Origin: Terriglobus albidus
GTDB taxonomy: Bacteria; Acidobacteriota; Terriglobia; Terriglobales; Acidobacteriaceae
Length of the DNA: 64,000 bases
Assembly: GCF_025685425.1 (NCBI RefSeq)
Contig: NZ_JAGTAS010000020.1
Span: forward strand, 1 to 64,000
Direction of reading: 5' to 3'
In this document: positions 24,236 through 62,587 of the stretch, piece by piece
Layout: every line of letters begins with the position of its first letter
Position numbering within the stretch: the stretch's first letter is position 1
Notes under the pieces: model-generated
What the model saw: only the letters and a program-made list of their open reading frames with translations
Told to the model about the DNA's origin: nothing
Database searches by the model: none
Position numbers and translations under genes: made by a program

Positions 24236-24271
24236 TAGAGCATTTTCCCTGTTGCTGCGGAAAATGCCCTA
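24236..24271. repeat. 36-bp mini copy of the TAGAGCATTTTC palindromic element
   Basis: TAGAGCATTTTCCCTGTTGC runs into GCGGAAAATGCCCTA, forming a 9-bp perfect stem (GCATTTTCC/GGAAAATGC). It carries only the two ends of the 115-bp element. Read on the minus strand, its first three bases (24271-24269) are the TAG stop codon of the macrodomain gene. It could also act as a terminator hairpin. Confidence 0.75.
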
Positions 24272-24769
24272 GCGCAGCAGCGCGGCGTACGCTTGCTCTG
24301 CCTCGTCGCTAAAGGCGACGAAGAGGATGCGATCGAGCAGCGGTGTATGGGCGTGCGCGCGTACGGTAGGCACGGCGATCTCCGCCGCCCGTTCTAATGG
24401 GAAACGATAGACCCCGGTCGAGATCGCTGGGAAGGCGATGCTTTGGGCGCCATGCTCCCTCGCCAGGTCGAGGCAACGGTTGTAACAACTTGCAAGCAGG
24501 TCGTCTTCGCCGCTGCCGCCTCCGTTCCATACCGGACCAACCGTATGGAAGACCCACTTCGCCGGGAGACGGAAGCCTGATGTTGGCTTGGCGTCACCGG
24601 TTTTGCAGCCGCCCAGCAGACGGCAGGCATGCAGCAGATCGGGCCCGGCCGCGCGGTGGATGGCTCCATCGACTCCTCCACCGCCCAGCAGCGAGGAGTT
24701 GGCGGCGTTCACAATGGCGTCGACCGCCAGTTTGGTGATGTCTCCGCGGTGGATCTCAAGCGATGCCAT
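24269..24769 (-). CDS. Macrodomain protein, O-acetyl-ADP-ribose deacetylase type
   Basis: Proteins of this type bind ADP-ribose and remove acetyl or ADP-ribosyl groups. The 166-residue product is a single macrodomain: [34 protein letters not shown] (8-41) contains the catalytic [17 protein letters not shown] loop, and [12 protein letters not shown] is the second ligand-binding loop. It is divergent from the purine nucleoside permease gene, with 43 bp between starts. Its stop codon is the first triplet of the mini repeat. A link to the RES NAD-depleting toxin 4 kb away is possible but unproven. Confidence 0.92.
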
Positions 24770-26460: not shown

Positions 26461-26783
26461 GATTTGCGAAAAGTCAAGCGCTGAAGGCGCGTTCTATACC
26501 AGCCTGGGGCAACGCCCCAGGTTTTGGCGCCCCAAAAGATGGTTAAAGGGCTGAAAGCCCGCCCTATATAACAGCCTTCAATCCGAGCTTATCGTTTGTG
26601 ACGATTGGGAATTATAGATCGGGCTTTCAGCCCTCTTACGTTTCCTTAGCTCCGTACCTGGGGCGTTGCCCCAGGCTGGTATAGGTCGCGCCTTCAGCGC
26701 TCAACAAAGAAGGGCTGAAGCCCGCTGCTCCCACCCAATTCCTCAAAAAGGGATCGAGCTTGGTCTTCTTGGCTCGGCTGTCT
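26461..26783. other. Gene-free region occupied by a nested palindrome
   Basis: Nearly the whole interval is the 225-bp inverted repeat at 26477-26701, followed by a fragment GGGCTGAAGCCCGCTGCTCCCACCC (about 26713-26737), the right end of the GGTGGGAGC family. No gene is supported; short frames here translate to the repeat peptide LGQRPRY and similar. Confidence 0.7.
26477..26701. repeat. 225-bp nested inverted repeat
   Basis: The outer arms 26477-26522 and 26656-26701 are 46 bp with only about two mismatches. Each arm holds its own hairpin (CCTGGGGC/GCCCCAGG). Inner arms 26547-26561 and 26620-26634 (AGGGCTGAAAGCCCG and complement) are perfect. The pattern looks like two inverted copies of a dispersed unit. 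Confidence 0.85.
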
Positions 26784-36440: not shown

Positions 36441-36592
36441 GGTGGGAGCAGCGGGCTTCAGCCCGCTGATTTAAGCAGTAAAGAAATTGGGCTTCAGCCC
36501 TGGGCTCTTCAATGTCATTCAAAGGCCCAGGGCTAAAAGCCCGATCTGGTTGTTATTTCTAAACCGTGGTCTGAAAGCCCACGGCTCCCACC
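36441..36592. repeat. GGTGGGAGC-bounded palindromic element, copy 1
   Basis: This 152-bp element has perfect 9-bp inverted ends, GGTGGGAGC and GCTCCCACC. Inside are nested hairpins: GCGGGCTTCAGCCCGC, and GCCCTGGGC with GGCCCAGGGC. It fills the gap between pyrG and the RcnB-like gene. The copy at 62358-62513 is the closest relative. Confidence 0.85.
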
Positions 36593-36643
36593 GCGCTCTT
36601 CTCGAGAATTCCGGCCTATTCCCGATACAACAAGGACACGCTC

Positions 36644-40284: not shown

Positions 40285-40476
40285 GGTGGGAGCCGAGTGC
40301 TTTGGCGCGCGGTTTTACTGGATAAAGAGAGGTCGGGCTTTAGCCCTGGGTCCTTTCCTAACGGACTAGAGGAGGCCCAGGGCTAAAGCCCGATTATTTT
40401 TATGTCTTTATCAGCGGGCTGAAGCCCGCCGAACACCCCAGCCAGCAAGCTGGCCGGGGACCCCGCTGCTCCCACC
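40285..40476. repeat. GGTGGGAGC-bounded palindromic element, copy 2
   Basis: This 192-bp element has perfect 9-bp inverted ends. It contains GGGCTTTAGCCC with GGCCCAGGGC hairpins and, near the right end, a second repeat type: CCCCAGCCAGCAAGC then TGGCCGGGGACCCC (about 40437-40464). Confidence 0.85.
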
Positions 40477-40531: not shown

Positions 40532-43500
40532 ATGAAGTTGCCGGATCAATTACAACTTCGTTTGCCTTCGAGGAGATCGCATCGGGGGCGAAGATCATGG
40601 CTTTGCCTCATGGTCTTGTTTCTCTGTATCCCGCTATACGGGATCGATCGTGACCGCACGGTCGCGCAGCTTCATCACACAGGCTGGACTTACATCGAAG
40701 GAGCGCCGGGCCAGGTGCGCGCGTTGGCCCAGACTACCGATGGTTATCTGTGGCTGGGAACCGCAACCGGCCTTTTCCGTTACGACGGCATTCAATTCGA
40801 AGCCTACAAGCCGCCATCCGGTCAGGCCTTTCCGCAACGCAATGTGGTCTCTCTTCTCGCCACTCCAGATGGCGGATTATGGGTGGGTTATTGGTATGGA
40901 GGAGTCAGCTTCATCAAGAACGGAAGCGTCACCGACTATGGAAAGCCTGACGGACTTCCTGCGAATCAGGTGCTGGCGTTTACACGCGACCGGCAAGGTG
41001 TGATCTGGCTTGCGGCGGGGAAGGATGGACTTGCCCGGCTGGAAGGTTCGCGCTGGAAAAAGGTCGGAATGGATATGGGGTTCTCCGGCCCTGCTAATAC
41101 CGTTTTTACAAGTCGCGACGGTACCGTTTGGGTGGGAACACCGACCAGCGTCGCTTATCTCGTCGAGGGAGCAAGCCAGTTCCAACTCGCCGCGCAGGGC
41201 TTGTTTCGTGTCAGAAACTTTGCTGAAGCCTCTGACGGCACATTGTGGATGGCAGAAACGGGCTATGGCGTGCGGCCTGTTCCGTTGCCCGGAAAGAACA
41301 GCGGCAAGCGGGGACCGGCCGTCCTTGTAGGATCACAGGCAATTACATTTGACCATCAGGGAAGCCTTTGGATTACCAGTCTGGGCAATGGAATCCGCCG
41401 CGTTCCGTACCCGGATCACCTTCGTCGGCCTAAGGTCGAAGGGCCATCTGCATGGCAGTTCCACGATCCTGATGTGGAGGAGTTCACCCCGCAGGACGGC
41501 CTGACAAGCGATTACGTGTCTTGCGTGTTGGAAGACCGCGAGGGCGACCTTTGGGTTGGCACCAGTGGGGGCCTGGATCGCTTCCGGCAGAGCCCCGTTG
41601 TCTCAATCACGGTTCAGCCCGTTGCGAATCAAGGTGCTCTTCCGATTCCATCGTTGCAATCGTTCACAACCAGCGCGGTGGCTGCGGGAGATAAGGGTGC
41701 GCTTTGGGCTGCAGGGATCGGGCCGCAGGTTCTGGTGAAGATTCAGGATGGCAAGATCGTCACACAGCTCCGCGACCGGTACATTGATTCCATCTATCGC
41801 GCTCCAAACGGCGCTGTGTGGCTGGCAACTCCGTGGTCGATCTTCCGCCTCTCCAGGGAACATGCAGCTGATCCGATGCAGGGAGCCGTAGCGTACAGCT
41901 ATGACGCCACCGTGCCTGTGGGACAAGGACAGGCACTGCATCGGCTTCATCTGCCAACTACAGACGGTATCGGTGTGAACCTGCAATCGCGCGTCAAGGC
42001 GATGACCCAGGACCGGTCGGGTCGGCTGTGGGTATCGATGGAGTCAGGGACCTTTCGACTGGAGAGGTCTGGATGGACCAGTCTTGAAAATCTTGGAGGC
42101 CCGCGCGGTACCGCGACCGCTGAGTTCACTGATTCCCAGGGGCGTATCTGGTTCGGATTCGCTAACACCATCGCGATGCTGGATCGAGATGGGGTAAGAA
42201 CCTATTCCAGAAAAGACGGTATCCAGGTGGGCACTATCACGTCGATCCAGGGCAAAGGATCGACGATCTGGATCGGCGGCGAGTTCGGTCTGGAGTTCTG
42301 GGAGGGCAACCGGTTTCAACCTGTAAGTCCAGCAGACGGAAGCACCTTCGGCGGTGTCTCTGGAATCCTCACCGATTCTGATGACGGGCTATGGTTCGCC
42401 GAGCAACGGGGAGTAATTCACATTCGCGAAGCTCAGTTGCGACAACCGAAATCCGGCAAAGTGGAGTTCGAGAGTTTTGGTTTGCTGGATGGCTTCACTG
42501 CTGCACTGAGGGGATCCCTTGCCTCACCATCCGCCGCGCAAACAACCGATGGCCACCTTTGGTTCGCGACCACAAAGGGCCTGGCCTGGATCGACCCCAG
42601 GCGCGTTGTTCGGAATACAGTGCCTCCGCCGGTATTGATTGAGTCCGTTCTTGCGAATGGCAGGAGATACGAGAGCTCCGCATCTTTCAAGCTGCCACCC
42701 CGGACGAGAAATTTGCAGATCGTCTATACGGCTACAAGTCTCACCATTCCCGAACGCGTTCGCTTTCGCTACAAGCTCGAAGGCCAGGATAAGGATTGGC
42801 AAGACGTAGGAACTCGCCGGGAGGCGTTCTACACCAACCTCGATCCGGGCACCTATCGATTCCGCGTGATTGCATGCAACAACGATGGAGTCTGGAATGA
42901 AGCCGGATCGACGCTGGACTTTGCTGTAACGCCGGCATTCGATCAGACGTTATGGTTCAGACTTCTATGCGTCATCGTTCTGGCTGGATGCCTGTGGTTG
43001 CTCTACCTGCGACGGCTGAGGCAAGCAACAGCCCATGTCCGGGAGCGGCTTGGGGCACGACTGGAAGAGCGAGTGCGCATCGCACGTGAGCTGCACGACA
43101 CCCTGCTGCAGGGCTTTCAGGGTCTCTTATTGCGGTTTGATGCCGTGAAGAAGGCAATCCCTCAAGACCACCCTGCACGCAGCCAGATGGAGAGCGTGCT
43201 CGACCGCGCCGACGAAGTTCTGCATGAAGGGCGAGAACGTGTCCGCGATCTTCGCCATGATGAGATCTCGGCGAATGAGCTGCCTGACAAGTTGGCGGCA
43301 GCCGGAGAGGAGTTTAGAAAAGGCCATGCAATCGGATTCAGCTTGAGCGTGATCGGAACGCAACAGCCGCTTGATGCCACAGTCGGTGACGAAGTGGTGA
43401 GGATAGGACAGGAGGCATTGGCGAATGCGTTCCGGCATTCCAAAGCATCAAAGATCGAAGTTGAAATCACATATGATCCCAGCCGGGTAAGGCTGAGGGT

Positions 43501-43738
43501 TCGCGATGACGGCATGGGGATCAGTCAGGATGTCCTGCTTCGTGGCCGGGACGGCCATTGGGGACTGATTGGAATGCGCGAGCGAACCCAGAAGATCGGC
43601 GGACAACTGAAGATCTGGAGCCAGGAAAGTGCAGGCACAGAGATTGAGCTCACGATTCCGGCGGCGATTGCATATCCACTTTCGCACAAGACGGTACGTT
43701 GGCACTGGGTTAAGCGTCTTCTCAGTCCGGGGGGCTAG
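40532..43738 (+). CDS. Orphan propeller sensor histidine kinase
   Basis: The 1068-residue kinase has an N-terminal hydrophobic segment (LCLMVLFLCIPLYGI), two-component-regulator propeller repeats over about residues 45-690 (GYLWLGTATGLFRYDG; GDLWVGTSGGLDRF), a Y_Y_Y domain (about 700-790), one membrane helix (FRLLCVIVLAGCLWLLYL) and a cytoplasmic HisKA_3 dimerisation domain with His855 in ARELHDTLLQGFQGLL, then HATPase (EALANAFRHSKA; DDGMGI; GLIGMRER). It probably senses an extracellular carbohydrate-like signal. No response regulator is adjacent. GAGGAA precedes the ATG. The TAG stop is the first triplet of the 115-bp element. Confidence 0.9.
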   Translation: MKLPDQLQLRLPSRRSHRGRRSWLCLMVLFLCIPLYGIDRDRTVAQLHHTGWTYIEGAPGQVRALAQTTDGYLWLGTATGLFRYDGIQFEAYKPPSGQAFPQRNVVSLLATPDGGLWVGYWYGGVSFIKNGSVTDYGKPDGLPANQVLAFTRDRQGVIWLAAGKDGLARLEGSRWKKVGMDMGFSGPANTVFTSRDGTVWVGTPTSVAYLVEGASQFQLAAQGLFRVRNFAEASDGTLWMAETGYGVRPVPLPGKNSGKRGPAVLVGSQAITFDHQGSLWITSLGNGIRRVPYPDHLRRPKVEGPSAWQFHDPDVEEFTPQDGLTSDYVSCVLEDREGDLWVGTSGGLDRFRQSPVVSITVQPVANQGALPIPSLQSFTTSAVAAGDKGALWAAGIGPQVLVKIQDGKIVTQLRDRYIDSIYRAPNGAVWLATPWSIFRLSREHAADPMQGAVAYSYDATVPVGQGQALHRLHLPTTDGIGVNLQSRVKAMTQDRSGRLWVSMESGTFRLERSGWTSLENLGGPRGTATAEFTDSQGRIWFGFANTIAMLDRDGVRTYSRKDGIQVGTITSIQGKGSTIWIGGEFGLEFWEGNRFQPVSPADGSTFGGVSGILTDSDDGLWFAEQRGVIHIREAQLRQPKSGKVEFESFGLLDGFTAALRGSLASPSAAQTTDGHLWFATTKGLAWIDPRRVVRNTVPPPVLIESVLANGRRYESSASFKLPPRTRNLQIVYTATSLTIPERVRFRYKLEGQDKDWQDVGTRREAFYTNLDPGTYRFRVIACNNDGVWNEAGSTLDFAVTPAFDQTLWFRLLCVIVLAGCLWLLYLRRLRQATAHVRERLGARLEERVRIARELHDTLLQGFQGLLLRFDAVKKAIPQDHPARSQMESVLDRADEVLHEGRERVRDLRHDEISANELPDKLAAAGEEFRKGHAIGFSLSVIGTQQPLDATVGDEVVRIGQEALANAFRHSKASKIEVEITYDPSRVRLRVRDDGMGISQDVLLRGRDGHWGLIGMRERTQKIGGQLKIWSQESAGTEIELTIPAAIAYPLSHKTVRWHWVKRLLSPGG

Positions 43739-43851
43739 AGCATTTTCTCTGTAGGTGTAGCGCAGGGATTCTCATCTATGGGCGTTTTTCCGCAAAGAAA
43801 ACGCCGCTGCACTCCTCTTCCGGGATGCCCAGCAACAGGGGAAATGCTCTA
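43736..43851 (+). repeat. 115-bp TAGAGCATTTTC element, copy A
   Basis: It runs from TAGAGCATTTTCTCTG to CAACAGGGGAAATGCTCTA, so the ends pair over about 16 bases. The centre has its own 8-bp hairpin (GGCGTTTT/AAAACGCC). Bases 43736-43738 are the stop codon of the histidine kinase gene. Same orientation as copy C. Confidence 0.9.
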
Positions 43852-43872
43852 AGACAATCGACATATTCGCCT

Positions 43873-43910
43873 TAGAGCATTTTCCTGTAGGTGTAGAGTA
43901 GTGCATCCTC
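43873..43910 (+). repeat. Partial copy of the 115-bp element
   Basis: TAGAGCATTTTCCTGTAGG then TGTAGAGTAGTGCATCCTCGC matches the left half of copies A and C. It lies 20 bases upstream of the gamma-glutamyltransferase start, the only copy at a gene's 5' side. Confidence 0.75.
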
Positions 43911-43930
43911 GCTGCAAGGTTCTGGCTATC

Positions 43931-45700
43931 ATGTCTCTTCATCCTCTGCGTTCCGGCATTCTTTTACTCTGTCTGACATCTGCCATGCAGGCACAGTTTG
44001 GCTCCGCACCGGCCGGCGGCACTCAGACGCCCGATGCAGCCGGCGGATCTATTCGTGACTCCCGCCAGCATCCTGCTGAACCTTCCCGCGACAACGCATT
44101 CTCCATGACGATTAATCGTTACGGCATCGCGGCCACATTACAGACACTTGCGTCGCAGGCCAGCGCCACGATCCTTGCCCGAGGAGGTAATGCCGTCGAT
44201 GCGGCGATCGCAGCGAATGCGGCGGTGGGTGTGATTGAGCCGATGATGAACGGCATCGGAGGAGATCTCTTCGCCATCGTCTGGGATCCGAAGGAAAAGA
44301 AGATGTACGCCCTGAACGCGAGCGGCTGGTCTGCCAAGGACGAGACCATCGATGCCATGAAGGCGCGTGGCGTGACCACGATGGACGGCACCAGCATCTA
44401 TGCCGTCACCGTTCCCGGCGCCGTAGCCGGATGGGCGGCGCTGCATGCGAAGTTCGGCAAGCTGCCGCTTGCGGTAGATCTCGCACCTGCTATTGCTCTG
44501 GCTGAGAACGGCTTTCCCGTCACCGAGACCGACTCCGCCACGTGGGCGCAGTACGGCATGCCCTTCAAGGACCGCGCAGCCTTTGCCTCCATCTATCTTC
44601 CCAAGGGAACCTATCCGCGCGAGGGAGAGATCTTCCGCAATCCGGATCTGGCCAACAGTCTTCGTCTGATTGCGAAGAATGGGGCCGATGCCTTCTACCG
44701 CGGCCCTATTGCTGATGCGATTGTGAAACTCTCCGACCAGAACAACGGCTTTCTCACCAAAGCTGATTTCGCGGAATACAAAGCGGAATGGGTCGAGCCT
44801 ATCTCGACGACCTATCACGGCTGGCGTGTCTACGAAACTCCGCCGAATACCCAGGGCGTCGCCGCTCTCTCGATGCTCAACGTCATGGAGCTCTATCCAC
44901 TGCGCGATTGGGGGCATGACTCGGCGAAGACCCTGCACATAGAAATGGAAGCCAAGGCGCTTGCCTATGCCGACATGCTTCACTACGTTGGCGATCCGAA
45001 TACGGATGACATTCCTACGAAGAAGCTCATCTCGAAGGAACTTGCCAAAGAACGCGCCCAGGGCATCACCGATAAAGCCAACTGCAAGGTGCTTCCGTCG
45101 GACCGCAAGGCGCAGCTCGACAAGCTGCAATCGGACACGACTTACCTCGCCACCGTCGATCGCGATGGCATGGTGGTCTCATTCATTCAATCGGATGCCG
45201 GCAGCTTCGGCTCGGGCCTGGTCGCGGAGCATACCGGCTTTGTGCTGCATAACCGTGCCGGCGGCTTCTACATGCAGCCCGGTCAGCCCAACTCACTGGC
45301 CGGGCACAAACGCCCGCTGCACACCATCATTCCAGCCATGATGCAGAAGGACGGTAAGACCATCGGCTTCGGCATCATGTCAGGCTTTAACCAAGCCCAG
45401 GCTCATGCGCAGTTCGTTGCCAATGTGGTGGACTTCGGCATGAACATCCAGGCGGCGATGGATGCTGCCCGCTTCAACAAAGGCAACTCCGGCTGCACTG
45501 TAAGCATTGAGGATGGTTATCCGCATGAGGTGCTGGAGCAGCTCGCCTCGCAGGGACACCAGATTATCCTGGTGCCGCGCTACTCGCAGGTGATGGGACG
45601 CGGCAATGCCGTGATGCGCGACGCGACACGCGACGTAAACTTCGGCGCGACCGATCCGCGGGCAGATGGGCAGGCCACTCCGGAGCAGCCGCCCTTCTAG
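43931..45700 (+). CDS. ggt: Gamma-glutamyltransferase, exported
   Basis: The enzyme cleaves or transfers gamma-glutamyl groups of glutathione in the periplasm and self-cleaves into two subunits. The 589-residue product has a signal peptide (LRSGILLLCLTSAMQA), the large-subunit block ILARGGNAVDAAIAANAAVGVIEP and GIGGDLFAIVWD, and the candidate catalytic threonine at 403/404 in SDTTYLATVDRDG. The HTIIPAMMQKDGKT region follows in the small subunit. The start at 43931 is preferred over a GTG inside the repeat at 43901. Its TAG stop is the first triplet of element copy B, and it is flanked by inverted element copies. Confidence 0.92.
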   Translation: MSLHPLRSGILLLCLTSAMQAQFGSAPAGGTQTPDAAGGSIRDSRQHPAEPSRDNAFSMTINRYGIAATLQTLASQASATILARGGNAVDAAIAANAAVGVIEPMMNGIGGDLFAIVWDPKEKKMYALNASGWSAKDETIDAMKARGVTTMDGTSIYAVTVPGAVAGWAALHAKFGKLPLAVDLAPAIALAENGFPVTETDSATWAQYGMPFKDRAAFASIYLPKGTYPREGEIFRNPDLANSLRLIAKNGADAFYRGPIADAIVKLSDQNNGFLTKADFAEYKAEWVEPISTTYHGWRVYETPPNTQGVAALSMLNVMELYPLRDWGHDSAKTLHIEMEAKALAYADMLHYVGDPNTDDIPTKKLISKELAKERAQGITDKANCKVLPSDRKAQLDKLQSDTTYLATVDRDGMVVSFIQSDAGSFGSGLVAEHTGFVLHNRAGGFYMQPGQPNSLAGHKRPLHTIIPAMMQKDGKTIGFGIMSGFNQAQAHAQFVANVVDFGMNIQAAMDAARFNKGNSGCTVSIEDGYPHEVLEQLASQGHQIILVPRYSQVMGRGNAVMRDATRDVNFGATDPRADGQATPEQPPF

Positions 45701-45812
45701 AGCATTTTCACTGTTGCTGGGTATCCCGGAAAAGGCGTGCAGCGGCGTTTTCATTGCGGAAAACGCCCATAGATGCGGATCCTCTGGGTACACCTGCAGT
45801 GAAAATGCTCTA
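45698..45812 (-). repeat. 115-bp TAGAGCATTTTC element, copy B (inverted)
   Basis: It runs from TAGAGCATTTTCACTGTTGC to GCAGTGAAAATGCTCTA. Its reverse complement aligns with copies A and C along its whole length. The outer stem has A opposite T (TTTTCACTG/CAGTGAAAA) where copy C has C opposite G, a compensatory change. Bases 45698-45700 are the ggt stop codon. Confidence 0.92.
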
Positions 45813-45880
45813 ATTCCCGGTTAGGTGTGCGATCGACATGATCGATGACAGGGAACTTTGACTCCCGAGATGGTCTTTGC

Positions 45881-45931
45881 TTGACACCCCTAAACATCTA
45901 GGCTAACTTTGATGCCAAGTTGTTTAGGGGT
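45881..45931 (+). promoter_or_regulatory. Promoter and candidate operator of the first PadR gene
   Basis: TTGACA (45881-45886) and TAACTT (45904-45909) are spaced 17 bp. ACCCCTAAACA (45886-45896) and TGTTTAGGGGT (45921-45931) form a perfect 11-bp inverted repeat that flanks the -10 box; the downstream arm contains the AGGGG ribosome-binding site of the GTG start at 45937. Binding there would block both transcription and translation. Confidence 0.65.
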
Positions 45932-45936
45932 ACATC

Positions 45937-46263
45937 GTGGCGAAAAACGATTTACAGGGAACACTGGATCTGCTGGTCTTGAAGACTCTCTCGCAGAAAG
46001 GCGAGTGCCATGGCTACGGCATTGTGCTTCATATTCAACAGGCGTCTGACGATCTGCTGCGTGTGGAAGAGGGCTCTTTGTATCCTGCACTGCACCGGAT
46101 GGAACAGCGTGGATGGATCTCTTCGGACTGGGCGCTTACAGAGACGAAACGGAAAGCAAAGTATTACAAGCTGACCTCTGCCGGCAGAAAGAAACTCGTG
46201 GAAGTCGAGAAGGATTTCGAGCACCTGGTAAAAGGTGTTCGCGCAATTTTGCGTTATGCCTAG
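45937..46263 (+). CDS. PadR-family transcriptional regulator (ADOP-linked)
   Basis: The 108-residue product is a PadR winged helix: DLQGTLDLLVLKTLSQKGECHGYGI, EEGSLYPALHRMEQRGWISSDWA, and YYKLTSAGRKKLVEVEKDF. GTG start with AGGGG seven bases upstream. It precedes the permease gene by 8 bases, the standard PadR-ADOP layout in Acidobacteria, and probably represses the pair through the inverted repeat at its promoter. Confidence 0.92.
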   Translation: MAKNDLQGTLDLLVLKTLSQKGECHGYGIVLHIQQASDDLLRVEEGSLYPALHRMEQRGWISSDWALTETKRKAKYYKLTSAGRKKLVEVEKDFEHLVKGVRAILRYA

Positions 46264-46271
46264 GAGGAGAG

Positions 46272-48902
46272 ATGTCGATGTTCCGTCGCATTTTCAACCT
46301 TTTCTCTCGATCGCACATGGAGCGCGAGATCGATGCTGAACTTCGTTCGCATATCGAGATGCGCATCGAAGACAACATCGCTTCCGGAATGTCGCCCGAC
46401 GAGGCTCGCCGCGATGCTCATCTACGCTTTGGCAATCTGATCAGCACGAAAGAACACGTAACTCATGCAGATGCGACTCTAACGCTCTACAGCATCTGGC
46501 TCGATATACGATTTGGGCGCCGTCAGTTGCGCAAAAATTTCGGCTTCTCCTGCACGGCCATCCTCGTATTGTCGCTGGGTATGTGCGCAAGTGTCGCCCT
46601 TTTTGCTTTCGTTGACGCCGTACTGATCAGACCGTTGCCCTACCAGAGTTCATCACGGCTGGTTGCTTTATTTGAGAGCACTCCCCTTGGATCGCGCTTC
46701 CATCTCTCGTATCTGGACTATCTGGACTGGAAGAAGCAGAACAAAGTCTTTGAGTCGCTGGAGGCATATGACAAAGTCTATTTTGCTCTGAATACCGCCA
46801 CGGAAACGCAGCTTGTCGATGGCGCCACCGTAAGTGCAGGCTTCTTTCGAACGTTAGGTGTCACCCCAGTGATTGGGCGTGATTTCCGTGAAGGCGAAGA
46901 TACTCCGAGCGTGCCGCGCACAGTGATGCTGAGCTATGCCGCATGGCAGAGCCGGTATGGGGGACGGCAGGATGTGTTGGAGCGCACGCTGACGATAGAG
47001 GGAGTTCCATATGTTGTCATCGGCGTGCTGCCGCGTGAGTTTCACTTTGCACCTGCGGGGCCGGCCGAGTTCTGGACATCGCTTCACGAATCCTCTAATC
47101 CGAACAATCGCGGAAATCATGGACTCCTGGCGATTGCTCGTCTGAAGAACAACGTGTCGGTCGAGTCAGCGGCCTCGGACATGACCTCGATTACTCAGCA
47201 GCTTGCAAAACAGTACCCAGACTCCGATGAGGGACGCGGCGCAACCGTGCTGCCGCTGACCGAAGTCATTGTGGGCAGGCTTCGGCCGGTACTATGGCTG
47301 CTTTTGTGCGGGGCAACCTTGCTGCTCCTGATTGCATGCGTGAATGTCTCAGGCCTGATTCTGGTCCGTTCCGAAAATCGCCGTCATGAGACAGCGGTTC
47401 GCGCCGCGCTGGGTGCGTCACGCATGCGGCTCATACGTCAGTTTGCGACGGAAGGGGTCATCCTCGCCGCGGCCGGCAGCCTGCTCGGCATATCGGCGAC
47501 ATATGGAGCCATTAGTCTGCTGTTGCAACTCGTACCGGTTAACATGCTGCGGGAGATGCCCTATCTACAGCATCTTGGGCTGACTCCCCACGTGCTTCTG
47601 TTCGCGGCACTCGTTGGCCTGGTGATGGCAACCCTATTCTCGCTCACCCCCATTCTTTGTCTATCGTTGTCAGACATGCGGGCCGGTTTGGTGGAGAGCG
47701 GCCGCTCCGGTGCAAAGACAGCCTGGAAGCATCTTGGAGCAAATCTTGTGGTGCTGGAGCTCTGCACCGCAATGGTGCTGCTGGCAGGAGCGGGTTTGCT
47801 AGGCAAAAGCTTCTATCGGCTGCTGCACGCTGATATCGGCATAGAGCCGGATCATCTGGCAATGATGCGGCTCAGAGCGCCACACTCCCGCTATCCAAAG
47901 GATGAACAGATCGTTGCCCTGGCGCAGCGCTTCATGGATGAAGCCGGCCGCTTACCCGGCGTACAGTCGGTTGCCGTTGCCCATCAGATCCCTGCGGCCG
48001 ACATCGCTGGAGGGAATACGACCTTCGAGATCATCGGAAGGCCGCAGCATGGCAGCACCAATGAATCGAGCGGCCGCCAGGTAAGCGCGAACTACTTCAA
48101 CACGATGCAAGCGCGGCTGGCACGTGGACGCTACTTTGCTCAGACAGACGATGCTTCGAAGTCTCGTGTCATGATTGTGAACCAGGCCTTCGCGCGGAAA
48201 TTCTTCCCTGGAGAGGACGCGATTGGAAAGCACATCCGCTACGATGCATCGACGCCACCAATCGAGATCGTCGGCATCGTTAACGACATCAAAGAGGGTC
48301 CGCTGGATACAGAGGTACAGCCTGTACTCTACACGCCGTTCAGCCAGGAACCGGACAATGCCTTCTACGTCATCCTCAGAACTGCTCATGCTCCTCAGGA
48401 GCTGTTGCAGCCGCTGGAAAGAACAGCTCACAGCATCGATCCCAATATTCTGACCTTTGGCCCGGAAACCATGGACGACCGGATCAGCCACTTACAGTCG
48501 ACCTATCTGCATCGCTCCTCCGCCTGCCTCATAGGCGGCTTCGCCGGGGCGGCGCTGCTGCTGGGTGTAGTGGGCTTATATGGAGTGATCGCGTATTCAG
48601 TGAGCCAGCGGACCAAAGAGATTGGAGTACGCATGGCGCTCGGAGCGCAGCGTCATGCTGTCTACCGGCTGATTCTGAAAGAGGCTGGACGGCTCGCGGC
48701 TATTGGTATCAGCACGGGAATTCTCTGCTCGGTAGCAACTGCAAGCCTGATACGTAATCTCCTGTTCGGCACGCAGCCGTGGGATGCGGCTACTCTTGCC
48801 GGAGTGTCAATTCTGCTGGCAACCGCAGCGCTTCTTGCCAGCTACATTCCCGCACGACGTGCGGCCTCAGTAAACCCAGTGGAGGCTTTACGCGCAGAAT
48901 AG
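46272..48902 (+). CDS. ADOP-type ABC transporter permease (MacB/FtsX-like)
   Basis: The family is a single-chain permease with two FtsX-like halves; no ATPase gene is adjacent. The 876-residue product has an N-terminal cytoplasmic helix region with MEREIDAELRSHIEMRIEDNIASGMSPDEAR, a first membrane helix near residue 95, a MacB-like periplasmic domain, a three-helix core (VLWLLLCGATLLLLIACVNVSGL; EDFAVRAALGAS-type ETAVRAALGASRMR), a second periplasmic domain (FARKFFPGEDAIGKHIRYD) and the closing KEIGVRMALGAQ helix set. TAGGAGGAG precedes the ATG. The substrate is unknown. The TAG stop is the first triplet of element copy C. Confidence 0.9.
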   Translation: MSMFRRIFNLFSRSHMEREIDAELRSHIEMRIEDNIASGMSPDEARRDAHLRFGNLISTKEHVTHADATLTLYSIWLDIRFGRRQLRKNFGFSCTAILVLSLGMCASVALFAFVDAVLIRPLPYQSSSRLVALFESTPLGSRFHLSYLDYLDWKKQNKVFESLEAYDKVYFALNTATETQLVDGATVSAGFFRTLGVTPVIGRDFREGEDTPSVPRTVMLSYAAWQSRYGGRQDVLERTLTIEGVPYVVIGVLPREFHFAPAGPAEFWTSLHESSNPNNRGNHGLLAIARLKNNVSVESAASDMTSITQQLAKQYPDSDEGRGATVLPLTEVIVGRLRPVLWLLLCGATLLLLIACVNVSGLILVRSENRRHETAVRAALGASRMRLIRQFATEGVILAAAGSLLGISATYGAISLLLQLVPVNMLREMPYLQHLGLTPHVLLFAALVGLVMATLFSLTPILCLSLSDMRAGLVESGRSGAKTAWKHLGANLVVLELCTAMVLLAGAGLLGKSFYRLLHADIGIEPDHLAMMRLRAPHSRYPKDEQIVALAQRFMDEAGRLPGVQSVAVAHQIPAADIAGGNTTFEIIGRPQHGSTNESSGRQVSANYFNTMQARLARGRYFAQTDDASKSRVMIVNQAFARKFFPGEDAIGKHIRYDASTPPIEIVGIVNDIKEGPLDTEVQPVLYTPFSQEPDNAFYVILRTAHAPQELLQPLERTAHSIDPNILTFGPETMDDRISHLQSTYLHRSSACLIGGFAGAALLLGVVGLYGVIAYSVSQRTKEIGVRMALGAQRHAVYRLILKEAGRLAAIGISTGILCSVATASLIRNLLFGTQPWDAATLAGVSILLATAALLASYIPARRAASVNPVEALRAE

Positions 48903-49014
48903 AACATTTTCCCTGTAGGTTGGTCCAGAGCATCCGCATCTATGGGCGTTTTCCGCAAAGAAAACGCCACTGCACTCCTCTTCCGGGATACCCAGCAACA
49001 GGGAAAATGCTCTA
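48900..49014 (+). repeat. 115-bp TAGA(G/A)CATTTTC element, copy C
   Basis: It runs from TAGAACATTTTCCCTGTAGG to CAACAGGGAAAATGCTCTA, same orientation as copy A, with the central hairpin GGCGTTTTCCGCAAAGAAAACGCC. Bases 48900-48902 are the stop codon of the ADOP permease. Confidence 0.92.
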
Positions 49015-49053
49015 GAACTGTGCACACAAGCATCCCGCGGCACACCATACCTT

Positions 49054-49794
49054 CTAGTTCTCGGTCGGTGTGCGATCGACGCGATCGATGACGAGAAACT
49101 CGACAGGTACGTTTTGCGGTTCCAGCTTCAGGCCCAGTGTCTTCTGAATCGCGGTGAAGATAGAAGGAAGGCCGTCGTCGGCTGATGATATGTTCGACGC
49201 AAAATCGAGCTTGATGTCGTAGCCGCCGCTGAGTCCCGTTTTATCGATGACAGGGCGCCCAGCAGGATGTTGCAGCATACCTGCGAGGTACGGCATGGAC
49301 CAGTCGAGTCCATTCAGTTGCTTGTCCGTAACGCTTATACGATATCCAGGAAATTTCGCCCCCTTGGTCGGCTCAAGTCTGGGGCCGTCTTTCGCAACCA
49401 CGAGCGCATAGCCGGGCATCTGCCTGGTCTCAGTGTGAGTGACAAGATGAAACCGCTCCTGCAGTAGAGACTGAAGCAGGGGTCTGAGCTCTTCGCGGCT
49501 GAGAGCAATGTTGCCGGAGGGCCGGGCGTCTACATCGAAGTGCGTTGCCCCTAGCCACGATGGCTTGTTGGCGATCTGATTCGCGTCGATGCCGTAGGCC
49601 AGAACTATTAACCATTGCAGAGATAAGTTGTGCGCCGTGAACTTGCCCGTACCGGGCGGGCTCCACGAGCCATCAAGCTCGCTTCCCGTTGATTCCCGAA
49701 TGGATGCAACATCAAACGAAGGATGCGATTGAGCGGAACAGACAGTTCCCACAACAAGGGCGAGCAAGAGAACGGTCAGTGCCTTGGCAGACAT
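49054..49794 (-). CDS. TIGR03435-type exported protein
   Basis: This family of unknown function is greatly expanded in Acidobacteria. The 246-residue product has a signal peptide (ALTVLLLALVVGTVCSA), the opening PSFDVASIRES, the LSLQWLIVLAYGID block (residues about 53-66), RPLLQSLLQERFHLVTHTETRQMPGYALVVAKDGP, and the closing PVEFLVIDRVDRTPTEN. It is divergent from an alpha/beta hydrolase gene (65 bp). No Shine-Dalgarno is evident ahead of the ATG. Confidence 0.88.
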   Translation of the reverse strand: MSAKALTVLLLALVVGTVCSAQSHPSFDVASIRESTGSELDGSWSPPGTGKFTAHNLSLQWLIVLAYGIDANQIANKPSWLGATHFDVDARPSGNIALSREELRPLLQSLLQERFHLVTHTETRQMPGYALVVAKDGPRLEPTKGAKFPGYRISVTDKQLNGLDWSMPYLAGMLQHPAGRPVIDKTGLSGGYDIKLDFASNISSADDGLPSIFTAIQKTLGLKLEPQNVPVEFLVIDRVDRTPTEN

Positions 49795-49859
49795 ATAAAG
49801 TTGATTGGGCCTATGATGCTTCCTGATAGCAGGACTATGTCAAGAGATAACGGTGAAGC

Positions 49860-50825
49860 ATGATGAAATTCCCCTACTCGCTGTTCGCCGGGATAATTTT
49901 CCTGCTGCCACTGCCCTGCGGGGCACAGATGGCGCCGCTTGATCCCGTACCAACCGGTGAGATGGTCGACCTTGGCGGGCGGCGGATCCATTTGAACTGT
50001 GTCGGAACAGGTTCGCCCACGATAGTGATCGAAAGTGGCGGCGGCAGCTTCGCGGTCGAGTGGACGCTGGTGCAGAGAGCAGTAGCAACGCGTTACCGCA
50101 TCTGCGCATATGACCGGGCTGGGTATGCATGGAGCGAAGGAGGAGCTGTCGATGAAGGCATCGAGCAGACGGTGGACGACCTTCATCTGCTTTTGCAGAA
50201 AGGCCGCATCAGGACACCGGTCGTTGTCGTTTGCCAATCGCTCGGATGTATCTACGCTCGTGCCTATCAACGACGATTCCCCGAACAGGTTGCCGGATTT
50301 GTCTTTGTCGATGGCTCCCATGACGAGGGCATTTCGCTTGTGCTGCACGGTACAAGAACGCCCATCAGTCTTCTATCACACGAAGATCTGCCGCAGGCCT
50401 ATGAGGAATACCGGAGATCGCTGCCGCCATTGAAAGCCGGCGGAGCCTCGGCTGCTCCCTTCGACCGTCTTCCGCCGGACATTCAAACAACCAGGCACTG
50501 GGCGTTTATGAAGATGTTGGATGAGATCGGGTGGCTTCCTAATAGCGCTGTAGCCGCTGAGTCCTGGAGAGAAGAGTTTGCTGCCTTGAGGTCGCAACGA
50601 CTCAGCGAACCCCATCCGCTTGGAGACCTTCCATTGGTTGTGTTGGAGCGGTCAAAGAACCCTGATCCAGTCTGGCATACCCAGCAGGTGCAGCTTGCCG
50701 CTCTCTCCTCCAGGGGACAATTGATTCGCGCGGAAAACAGCGGACACATGATCCATCTGGAAAGACCGGACCTGGTGGCCGAAGCTATCCACCGTGTCGT
50801 CTCCCAGCTCCGAGAAAAGCATTGA
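49860..50825 (+). CDS. Exported alpha/beta hydrolase
   Basis: The 321-residue product has a signal peptide (YSLFAGIIFLLPLPCGAQ) and an alpha/beta-hydrolase fold: GGRRIHLNCVGTGSPTIVIESGGG, YDRAGYAWSEGG, the nucleophile elbow VVCQSLGCIYAR with Ser127 (the usual first Gly is Cys125), and a late His in NSGHMIHLERPDLVAEA. Esterase or peptidase activity is possible; the substrate is unknown. Confidence 0.85.
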   Translation: MMKFPYSLFAGIIFLLPLPCGAQMAPLDPVPTGEMVDLGGRRIHLNCVGTGSPTIVIESGGGSFAVEWTLVQRAVATRYRICAYDRAGYAWSEGGAVDEGIEQTVDDLHLLLQKGRIRTPVVVVCQSLGCIYARAYQRRFPEQVAGFVFVDGSHDEGISLVLHGTRTPISLLSHEDLPQAYEEYRRSLPPLKAGGASAAPFDRLPPDIQTTRHWAFMKMLDEIGWLPNSAVAAESWREEFAALRSQRLSEPHPLGDLPLVVLERSKNPDPVWHTQQVQLAALSSRGQLIRAENSGHMIHLERPDLVAEAIHRVVSQLREKH

Positions 50826-59931: not shown

Positions 59932-60603
59932 GAACAGTGTCGCGGTTGTTATGAGCGAGGCTTAGGGTTATGGTTTTTTGTTTGTCATTTCGGAGCGCTC
60001 GGGTCCCCGGCCAGCGTTGCTGGCTGGGGTGAAGAGTAGCGGAGAAATCTGCTTTTCTACCGATGCTTCTACCCGCGCAAAGGCGGAAAAGCAGATCCCT
60101 ACCCGCCCCAATCAGCAGAGCTGGTCGGGGACCCCATTTCGGATGACAAAAAACTATCGCGCGAATCGCGATAACCTACGCTAAGCCCCAGCGAACAAGT
60201 TCGCCGGGGGTCCCACCCTTCGCTGTGCGAAGAATGGGGCAACGGGTGTATTGGCTCAGTAGATTTGTCGATACATGTAGCAACCACGGCGTATCGACAA
60301 ATTCCAGTTGATCTGACAGAGGATGACTGAAACTGGTGGGAGCAGCGGGGTCCCCATCCAGCCTTGCTGGATGGGGTGTTCAGCGGGCTTCAGCCCTGGG
60401 CCTCCTCTGTACGCGAAGAAAAAGCCCATTTCATATCGAGCCGATATACCGTGGGCTGAAAGTCCACGCCTTTACCCCAGCCAGCAACGCTGGCCGGGGA
60501 CCCCGATGCTCCCACCGAATCGAGCTTCGCTCGAACATTCCACCCTTCGCTATGCGAAGAATGGGGCAACGGATGTATTGGCTCGCCGGATTCGTCGATA
60601 CAT
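59932..60603. other. Gene-free region packed with hairpin repeats
   Basis: It contains CCCC-type hairpins at about 60001-60033 (GGGTCCCCGGCCAGCG then TTGCTGGCTGGGG), 60104-60135, 60186-60214, the 60335-60516 element, and ATTCGAGC-type and TTCGCTATGCGAA hairpins after it. A TATTGGCTC.GTAGATTTGTCGATACAT unit (60249-60276) recurs at 60575-60602. No gene is supported. Confidence 0.7.
60335..60516. repeat. GGTGGGAGC-bounded palindromic element, copy 3
   Basis: This 182-bp element has perfect 9-bp inverted ends. CCCC-type hairpins sit just inside both ends (CCCCATCCAGCCTTGCTGGATGGGG with a leading GGGGT, and CCCCAGCCAGCAACGC then TGGCCGGGGACCCC), so one repeat family is nested in the other. Confidence 0.85.
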
Positions 60604-62148: not shown

Positions 62149-62587
62149 AACTCACTCCTTCTTATAGGCCCGCGATCCGCTTCGTCGGGCGAGAAGAGAG
62201 TGGGTTGTGAGATCACGCAAAAGCAAAGGTGGGATAATCCCTTTCCGCGGACGGGGTGCACCCTTGGTGTGCGTTACGAGTGTAGCAGTATTTGGGTGAT
62301 CCAAGGCCGACCGAAAGTGCACAGGGCCGCCAGGGATTTAAGCCGAAGAATAGATTGGGTGGGAGCAGCGGGCTTCAGCCCGCTGATTGAAACCATAAGA
62401 CGACGCCTCTAAGCCCTGGGCCTTCTCCTGGAATCGAAATAAAGGCCCAGGGCTAAAAGCCCAGCTTTTCTTGTATCCAGTAAACCGCGGGCTGAAAGCC
62501 CGCGGCTCCCACCGGTCCCTTGCTTCGCCCAGGATGACGCACATGATTGATGCGGGCGGACTATATGATGATCAGGCACTTGATAAC
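62149..62587. other. Gene-free region with a GGTGGGAGC element
   Basis: The first 200 bases hold the leader of the ankyrin gene and no clear repeats. The 62358-62513 element follows, then a CCTTGCTTCGCCCAGGATGAC repeat fragment and the short leader of the GH92 gene. No gene is supported. Confidence 0.65.
62358..62513. repeat. GGTGGGAGC-bounded palindromic element, copy 4
   Basis: This 156-bp element has perfect 9-bp inverted ends and the same inner hairpins as copy 1 (GCGGGCTTCAGCCCGC; GCCCTGGGC and GGCCCAGGGC; CCGCGGGCTGAAAGCCCGCGG). The middle segments between hairpins differ freely, so the paired parts are conserved and the spacers are not. Confidence 0.88.

Follow-up and report, generated by a model that had tools for sequence, protein, structure and literature searches.

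The window analysed here is a 64,000-nucleotide stretch of the Terriglobus albidus genome (contig NZ_JAGTAS010000020.1, positions 1 to 64,000), which carries several copies of a short palindromic repeat at the 3' ends of genes. These copies measure 36-116 bp, their arms are long inverted repeats, and they are too short for a transposase gene. Full-length copy 1 (43736-43851, 116 bp) begins with a TAG (43736-43738) that is also the stop codon of a plus-strand two-component histidine kinase gene (40610-43738, open reading frame (ORF) from 40532). Copy 2 (45698-45812, 115 bp) stands in the same way at the end of the plus-strand gamma-glutamyltranspeptidase gene ggt (43985-45700, ORF from 43901; TAG at 45698-45700), and copy 3 (48900-49014, 115 bp) at the end of a plus-strand, ADOP-like MacB/FtsX permease gene (46317-48902, ORF from 46113; TAG at 48900-48902). 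A mini copy of 36 bp (24236-24271), probably an internally deleted form, supplies the TAG at 24271-24269 that ends a macrodomain gene on the minus strand (24269-24769). Gene starts are as called here with a purpose-made codon-usage caller rather than a standard annotator, and the ORFs of the three plus-strand genes open further upstream.

The ORF ends (43738, 45700, 48902 and, on the minus strand, 24269) coincide exactly with the four terminal TAGs, as the first-pass annotation had observed for the complete copies, and Pfam matches to histidine kinase, gamma-glutamyltranspeptidase, MacB/FtsX permease and Macro domain agree with its naming of the genes as histidine kinase, ggt, ADOP permease and macrodomain. 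The shared ends of TAG-A-(G/A)-CATTTTC that it described do not extend to the mini copy, whose stop-side end reads TAGGGCATTTTC rather than TAGAGC or TAGAAC. It had also placed every copy at a stop codon, overlooking a partial copy on the plus strand (from 43873 to approximately 43905) that has one end only and lies between the kinase gene and ggt, not at a stop codon. Copies 1 and 2 are bounded by a duplicated TA, at 43736-43737 and 43850-43851 for the former and at 45698-45699 and 45811-45812 for the latter.

The exact end motif of the repeat, TAGARCATTTTC, occurs 320 times (162 + 158) in the T. albidus genome (6.1 Mb in 58 contigs), compared with a single match for a reversed-pattern control, indicating a repeat family rather than chance matches; in the window, nine matches with at most one mismatch were found where 0.33 would be expected. 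A profile search of 1.2 Mb of contig C28 of this genome located the repeat at 98 places, 73 of them full length and 25 partial. Another run gave 94, a difference that probably stems from an E-value cut-off tied to how much sequence is searched. Among 61 genomes including that of T. albidus, TAGAGCATTTTC matched in 21. Of the 19 genus members, T. albidus included, just four are rich in it (311, 149, 128 and 122 matches), the other 15 having 0-3, and outside the rich genus members it was counted 20 times in G056, which belongs to another family of the class, and seven times in G030. This distribution reflects patchy amplification and was counted in favour of a mobile element of insertion sequence (IS) type IS630. 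A scan of 29 bases of the element against named genomes returned 28 stretches, all labelled as acidobacterial metagenome-assembled genomes, records of the T. albidus genome itself possibly being left out.

The sites of insertion were compared with the relative G002 by joining the flanks of each C28 copy in silico and matching them across the junction. Spanning matches were obtained for 25 of 70 copies (26 of 73 in an earlier pass), and 18 of these 25 empty sites have a TA at the junction, namely all 10 stop-located sites and eight of the 15 others. At each of the 10, the G002 frame runs open through 67-70 codons to the junction, where it ends in TAA (five sites) or TAG (five sites), so the comparison of orthologous 3' ends that the first-pass annotation had proposed yields a pre-insertion stop codon in all 10 comparable cases. 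The genes of the window agree. Kinase orthologues without the element end in frame in TAA at the copy 1 site in G002 and G012, and G015 has an aligned TAA preceded by a one-base frame shift that brings an earlier TAG into frame. For ggt, the empty sites read TTC TAA TTC in G002 and TTC TAA TTG in G015, and the window reads TTC TA[element]TA ATTCC. The macrodomain gene has an empty site in G015, where it ends in TAG. For the permease, the best G002 match (75% protein identity) lies at another locus and ends in TGA, and thus does not give the pre-insertion codon. A weak reverse test matched six of 37 G002 copies to C28, four with TA; of its two stop-located copies, one has TAA and the other gave an unusable alignment. 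Given a pre-existing TAA or TAG and a duplicated TA, the stop codon TAG consists of the target TA and the first base of the element, G.

Some of these stop codons appear to have been entered more than once. The ggt stop codon of G012 is occupied by a copy with other arm bases, which would make it independent of the copy in the window, and in G002 the stop codon of the macrodomain gene holds a MITE (miniature inverted-repeat transposable element) of a second family. From filled and empty sites together, stop codons emerge as landing sites that are apparently neutral and open to repeated hits. For six C28 copies, two of them at stop codons, the alignment with G002 runs through the element, which thus occupies one site in both; compared with 10 of the 25 copies with empty sites, these small numbers give no sign that stop-located copies build up with age.

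Beyond the window, stop codons account for fewer than half of the copies, again at odds with placement of every copy at one. In C28, 28 of the 73 full-length copies have an end exactly on a neighbour's stop codon, and among full-length noncoding copies from C28 and 1.2 Mb of G002 the share is 45 of 107. The 107 comprise 70 copies from C28 and 37 from G002 lying outside genes; partial copies (25 of the 98 C28 places), copies mostly inside called genes (two of 73) and copies less than 1.6 kb from the end of a fetched stretch were left out, and some second-family copies caught by the profile (e.g., C28:552227) are counted in. Copies that are not at stop codons nevertheless share a target context: 31 of 62 stand in pyrimidine-TA-purine, compared with 2249 of 11900 background TAs, and none of the 62 stands in purine-TA-pyrimidine, compared with 3313 of 11900. 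In addition, the target was CTAG in 10 of 45 cases, against a background of 5.9%. Because the non-stop copies have the same context, the preference is for pyrimidine-TA-purine and not for stop codons as such. Of the two halves of the earlier proposal, that the enzyme responsible for mobilisation targets TAG stop codons and that it restores them, the second therefore survives, the TA being duplicated and the G of the element rebuilding TAG, but the first does not.

Insertion sequences with matching ends exist in related genomes. In G014 and G030, IS630 elements of 1024 bp and 1026 bp, respectively, carry TA|GAGCATTTTC at both ends, with the exact terminal decamer; both encode DDE_3 domains, and the G030 element also encodes HTH_Tnp_IS630. 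With the G014 transposase as query, 37 of 150 genomes of the family matched. Two of the three relatives fetched from these, G129 and G155, carry ends that are nearly identical and adjoin TA on either side, and three of their four ends continue with GGTGTATA from position 17, where the repeat has GGTGTAG at one end; the third, G085, has only one such end. Taken together, the repeat is very probably a non-autonomous MITE of the IS630/Tc1-mariner type, pasted in by an IS630 DDE transposase, that duplicates TA and rebuilds TAA and TAG stop codons as TAG. A transposase of an IS630-family element with ends GAGCATTTTC-N6-GGTGTA would paste the MITE into a TA, preferably one in pyrimidine-TA-purine context, and the TA would be duplicated on insertion. 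TAA and TAG stop codons always hold TA followed by a purine. On insertion there the stop codon is rebuilt from the TA of the target and the G of the element, with the old third base moved to the far side, and because the element begins with G the protein is unchanged. Insertions into coding TAs would presumably be removed by selection. The duplicated TA, the empty sites with their earlier stop codons, the target context and the same-ended IS630 elements of related genomes were observed directly, whereas mobilisation of these copies by such a transposase and the loss of coding insertions to selection are inferred. The account is simple and has been tested: a TA-duplicating element that starts with G converts TAA or TAG to TAG and leaves the protein unaltered.

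Several observations weigh against this account. GGTGTAG is present at only one of the two ends of the MITE, and no IS630 element with its ends was found in the 58-contig assembly of T. albidus or in G002. PF13358 has two matches in each of these genomes; in T. albidus, one is an IS630 copy on contig C35, rejected as a partner because its locus lacks GAGCATTTTC with up to two mismatches, and the other is a 72-aa fragment on C58. PF01609 (DDE_Tnp_1) had no match in the T. albidus genome, and the G014 transposase had none in either T. albidus or G002. The mobilising enzyme is thus absent, lost or unassembled in these genomes, and mobilisation of the present copies by a transposase of a same-ended IS630 is what the matching ends suggest. 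A partner IS in the same genome is a common, not a necessary, feature of a MITE. Moreover, 27 of the 73 full-length C28 copies lack TA at one or both ends, which was read as decay, and one second-family copy is flanked by TC instead of TA. Seven of the 25 empty-site alignments have no TA at the junction, and seven of the 18 that do have a gap within 10 bp of it (11 are gap-free). Finally, when insertion sites were drawn among the TAs of the same intergenic regions, weighted by context class and GC content, 32.7 +/- 3.3 of the 107 copies fell on stop codons, and 29.8 +/- 3.2 did so with finer context weights and no GC term, both below the 45 observed.

This residual excess speaks for an unlikely alternative, an element or enzyme that is drawn to stop codons or the 3' ends of genes over and above the TA context, for example by way of ribosomes at termination, the ends of transcription or a broader preference in sequence. 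Noncoding TA dinucleotides belong to stop codons in 8.9% of cases, or 14.9% once weighted for context and GC, and the observed share is also well above this genome-wide expectation. Likewise, 45 of 214 element ends are at stop codons, compared with 555 of the 6003 TAGs in noncoding DNA of either strand (p = 3.6e-7), and the second-family MITE in the macrodomain stop codon of G002 points in the same direction. The excess is marginal, however, when the yardstick is TAG triplets of the sense strand lying up to 100 bp past a stop codon, with 45 of 87 element ends (51.7%) on the stop codon compared with 555 of 1363 triplets (40.7%; odds ratio 1.56, p = 0.056); this was the control that the first-pass annotation had itself named. 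The TA context is the same in non-stop copies, and GC-richer flanks (0.59 at stop-located copies vs 0.55 at stop TAs in general) and gene-calling errors could explain the remainder. Copies retaining TA at both ends gave 23 of 45 at stop codons, or 39 of 73 in another run against a within-region expectation of 24.6 +/- 2.7, but these counts lean upward because the stop-side TA is protected from decay, and all full-length copies were therefore relied on. The association with stop codons is real and is mostly explained by where TA sites lie, namely by target context and the TA within TAA and TAG stops, with a modest excess remaining. The earlier argument that chance placement would not give the pattern is consequently largely wrong, since the stop codon is the commonest TA or TAG near gene ends, and target availability may largely account for a small window in which every copy sits on a stop codon. 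It is improbable that the residue reflects true targeting, in which this IS630 group would be steered to the 3' ends of genes or to terminating ribosomes or transcripts and the first G would have evolved as a stop-restoring device; stop codons would then be a safe-haven niche common to several element families of the lineage.

Less likely still is that selection retains copies at the ends of genes for their service as a combined stop codon and transcription terminator or as a stabiliser of mRNA 3' ends. Copies fold into strong hairpins (-55.8 and -48.5 kcal/mol, with z of -6.6 and -4.9; z for copy 2 is -6.6) and are underrepresented between divergent genes, regions that hold 13 of the 107 copies but make up 27% of intergenic length. 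In 92 of the 107 copies, 51 matched changes occur in both arms, compared with a shuffle mean of 15 and a maximum of 26, and they are somewhat more frequent per copy at stop codons (23 in 38 copies vs 26 in the remaining 54; share of changed pairs, 0.29 vs 0.21). Such changes are nevertheless seen at stop codons and elsewhere alike, and many resemble variants passed on by descent; the sharing between arms suggests inheritance of variants with matched ends or arm-to-arm correction. Family-profile scores are no higher at stop codons (medians of 113.1 bits vs 111.6 bits for the others, p = 0.79), leaving the earlier idea of a selected stop codon and terminator without support. A native TAA or TAG was already present in the 10 comparable cases, and occupancy varies among relatives, with 25 or 26 empty sites compared with six shared ones. 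No terminator-like site with a T-run was detected at the three copies in 43000-50000 by a scan that sees only loops of 3-8 nt, and an Rfam search of 43000-49500 up to E = 5 gave a single match (44239-44261, E = 3), at no MITE copy.

A very slight chance attaches to insertion within coding sequence, the element's TAG being premature and truncating the gene in frame. Any in-frame insertion would produce the same local picture, and one-third would be in frame by chance, but in the 10 C28 cases open to comparison, as in the kinase (G002, G012), ggt (G002, G015) and macrodomain (G015) genes, element-free orthologues terminate at that very codon, so that truncation is rejected for all of these. Least credible is a repetitive extragenic palindromic (REP) sequence of the GTAG-tagged kind moved by a REP-associated tyrosine transposase (RAYT), which would fit the palindromic form, the mostly intergenic location, the hundreds of end motifs and the terminal TAG serving as a stop codon, but not the TA target duplication, the IS630 elements with the same ends, the length of 115 bp instead of 20-40 bp, or two equal ends (TAGAGC) with a variable base before TAG and no single-ended GTAG tag.

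YPAL elements of Yersinia insert just downstream of stop codons. In the description given in PMC2229807, these repeats (YPAL/RU-2) are, like the present MITE, palindromic intergenic MITEs with filled and empty sites in relatives, but they lack TA termini and produce target duplications of 3-26 bp. A close counterpart in the same article is RUP of Streptococcus pneumoniae, a MITE linked to IS630-Spn1 and present as 108 copies of 107 bp, which shares the TA target, IS630-like terminal repeats and intergenic location (PMC2229807). RUP differs in its host, and the likeness is one of description, not of compared sequences; the portion of that article dealing with RUP notes no stop-codon rule, and RUP has a partner IS, whereas none was found for the present MITE in its own genome. 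The autonomous elements IS630 of Shigella sonnei and ISY100, which carry their own transposase gene, likewise insert into TA and duplicate it, according to the relevant part of PMC2170065, whose reference list includes, by title, a report of IS630 preference for TA in CTAG (Tenzen and Ohtsubo 1991).

Repeats whose ends provide a stop codon have been described before, contrary to the earlier statement that no such family was known. In GTAG REPs the flanking ORF often takes its stop codon from the terminal TAG (Di Nocera et al. 2013, PMC3733652, in its account of these repeats). Like the present MITE they are palindromic and lie near the 3' ends of genes, for the most part where neighbouring genes converge or run in the same direction, and they differ in their length of 20-40 bp, single unpaired GTAG end and tyrosine transposases (PMC3733652), as against the equal ends, 115 bp, TA duplication and IS630 type found here. 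For the BOX repeats of S. pneumoniae, a section of Croucher et al. 2011 (PMC3049150) reports 36 coding sequences whose stop codon is encoded by the repeat, without strong evidence of truncation; BOX is modular and has another proposed partner, ISSpn2. The present repeat thus resembles GTAG REPs and BOX in supplying stop codons and works like RUP/IS630-Spn1 and other TA-duplicating MITEs. In the open-access PMC literature, no paper was found on this acidobacterial repeat family, nor any empty-site demonstration of a TA-duplicating MITE regenerating a stop codon.

The second MITE family has ends GAGCAATTCTCC and is mostly 111-149 bp long, with 14 pairs of ends in C28 and G002 (e.g., C28:552229-552340, L058, and C28:561431-561542, L059). 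TA stands on both sides in eight of the 14 pairs, an end lies at a stop codon in five, and one pair, in G002, has a first-family interior. The copy with TC rather than TA flanks (L062, C28:626008-626119) is nested in a first-family copy. A different MITE of approximately 222 bp with the same terminal decamer occurs in G056 (L223-L228), where four of 10 ends examined are at called stop codons.

Within the window, the sequence at 45824-45857 beside ggt is 85% alike to that at 49067-49100, near the 3' end of a minus-strand DUF3738 gene (49054-49794), and in G002 and G015 a sequence like the end of this gene stands directly 3' of ggt. The permease segment between the two stretches has the appearance of an insertion in the course of which the gene end was duplicated. 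In addition, the window contains other short palindromic repeats, of the GGTGGGAGCAGCGGGCTTCAGCCC and CCCCAGC types, at 26477-26739, 36441-36600, 40285-40476, 59992-60529 and 62354-62521.

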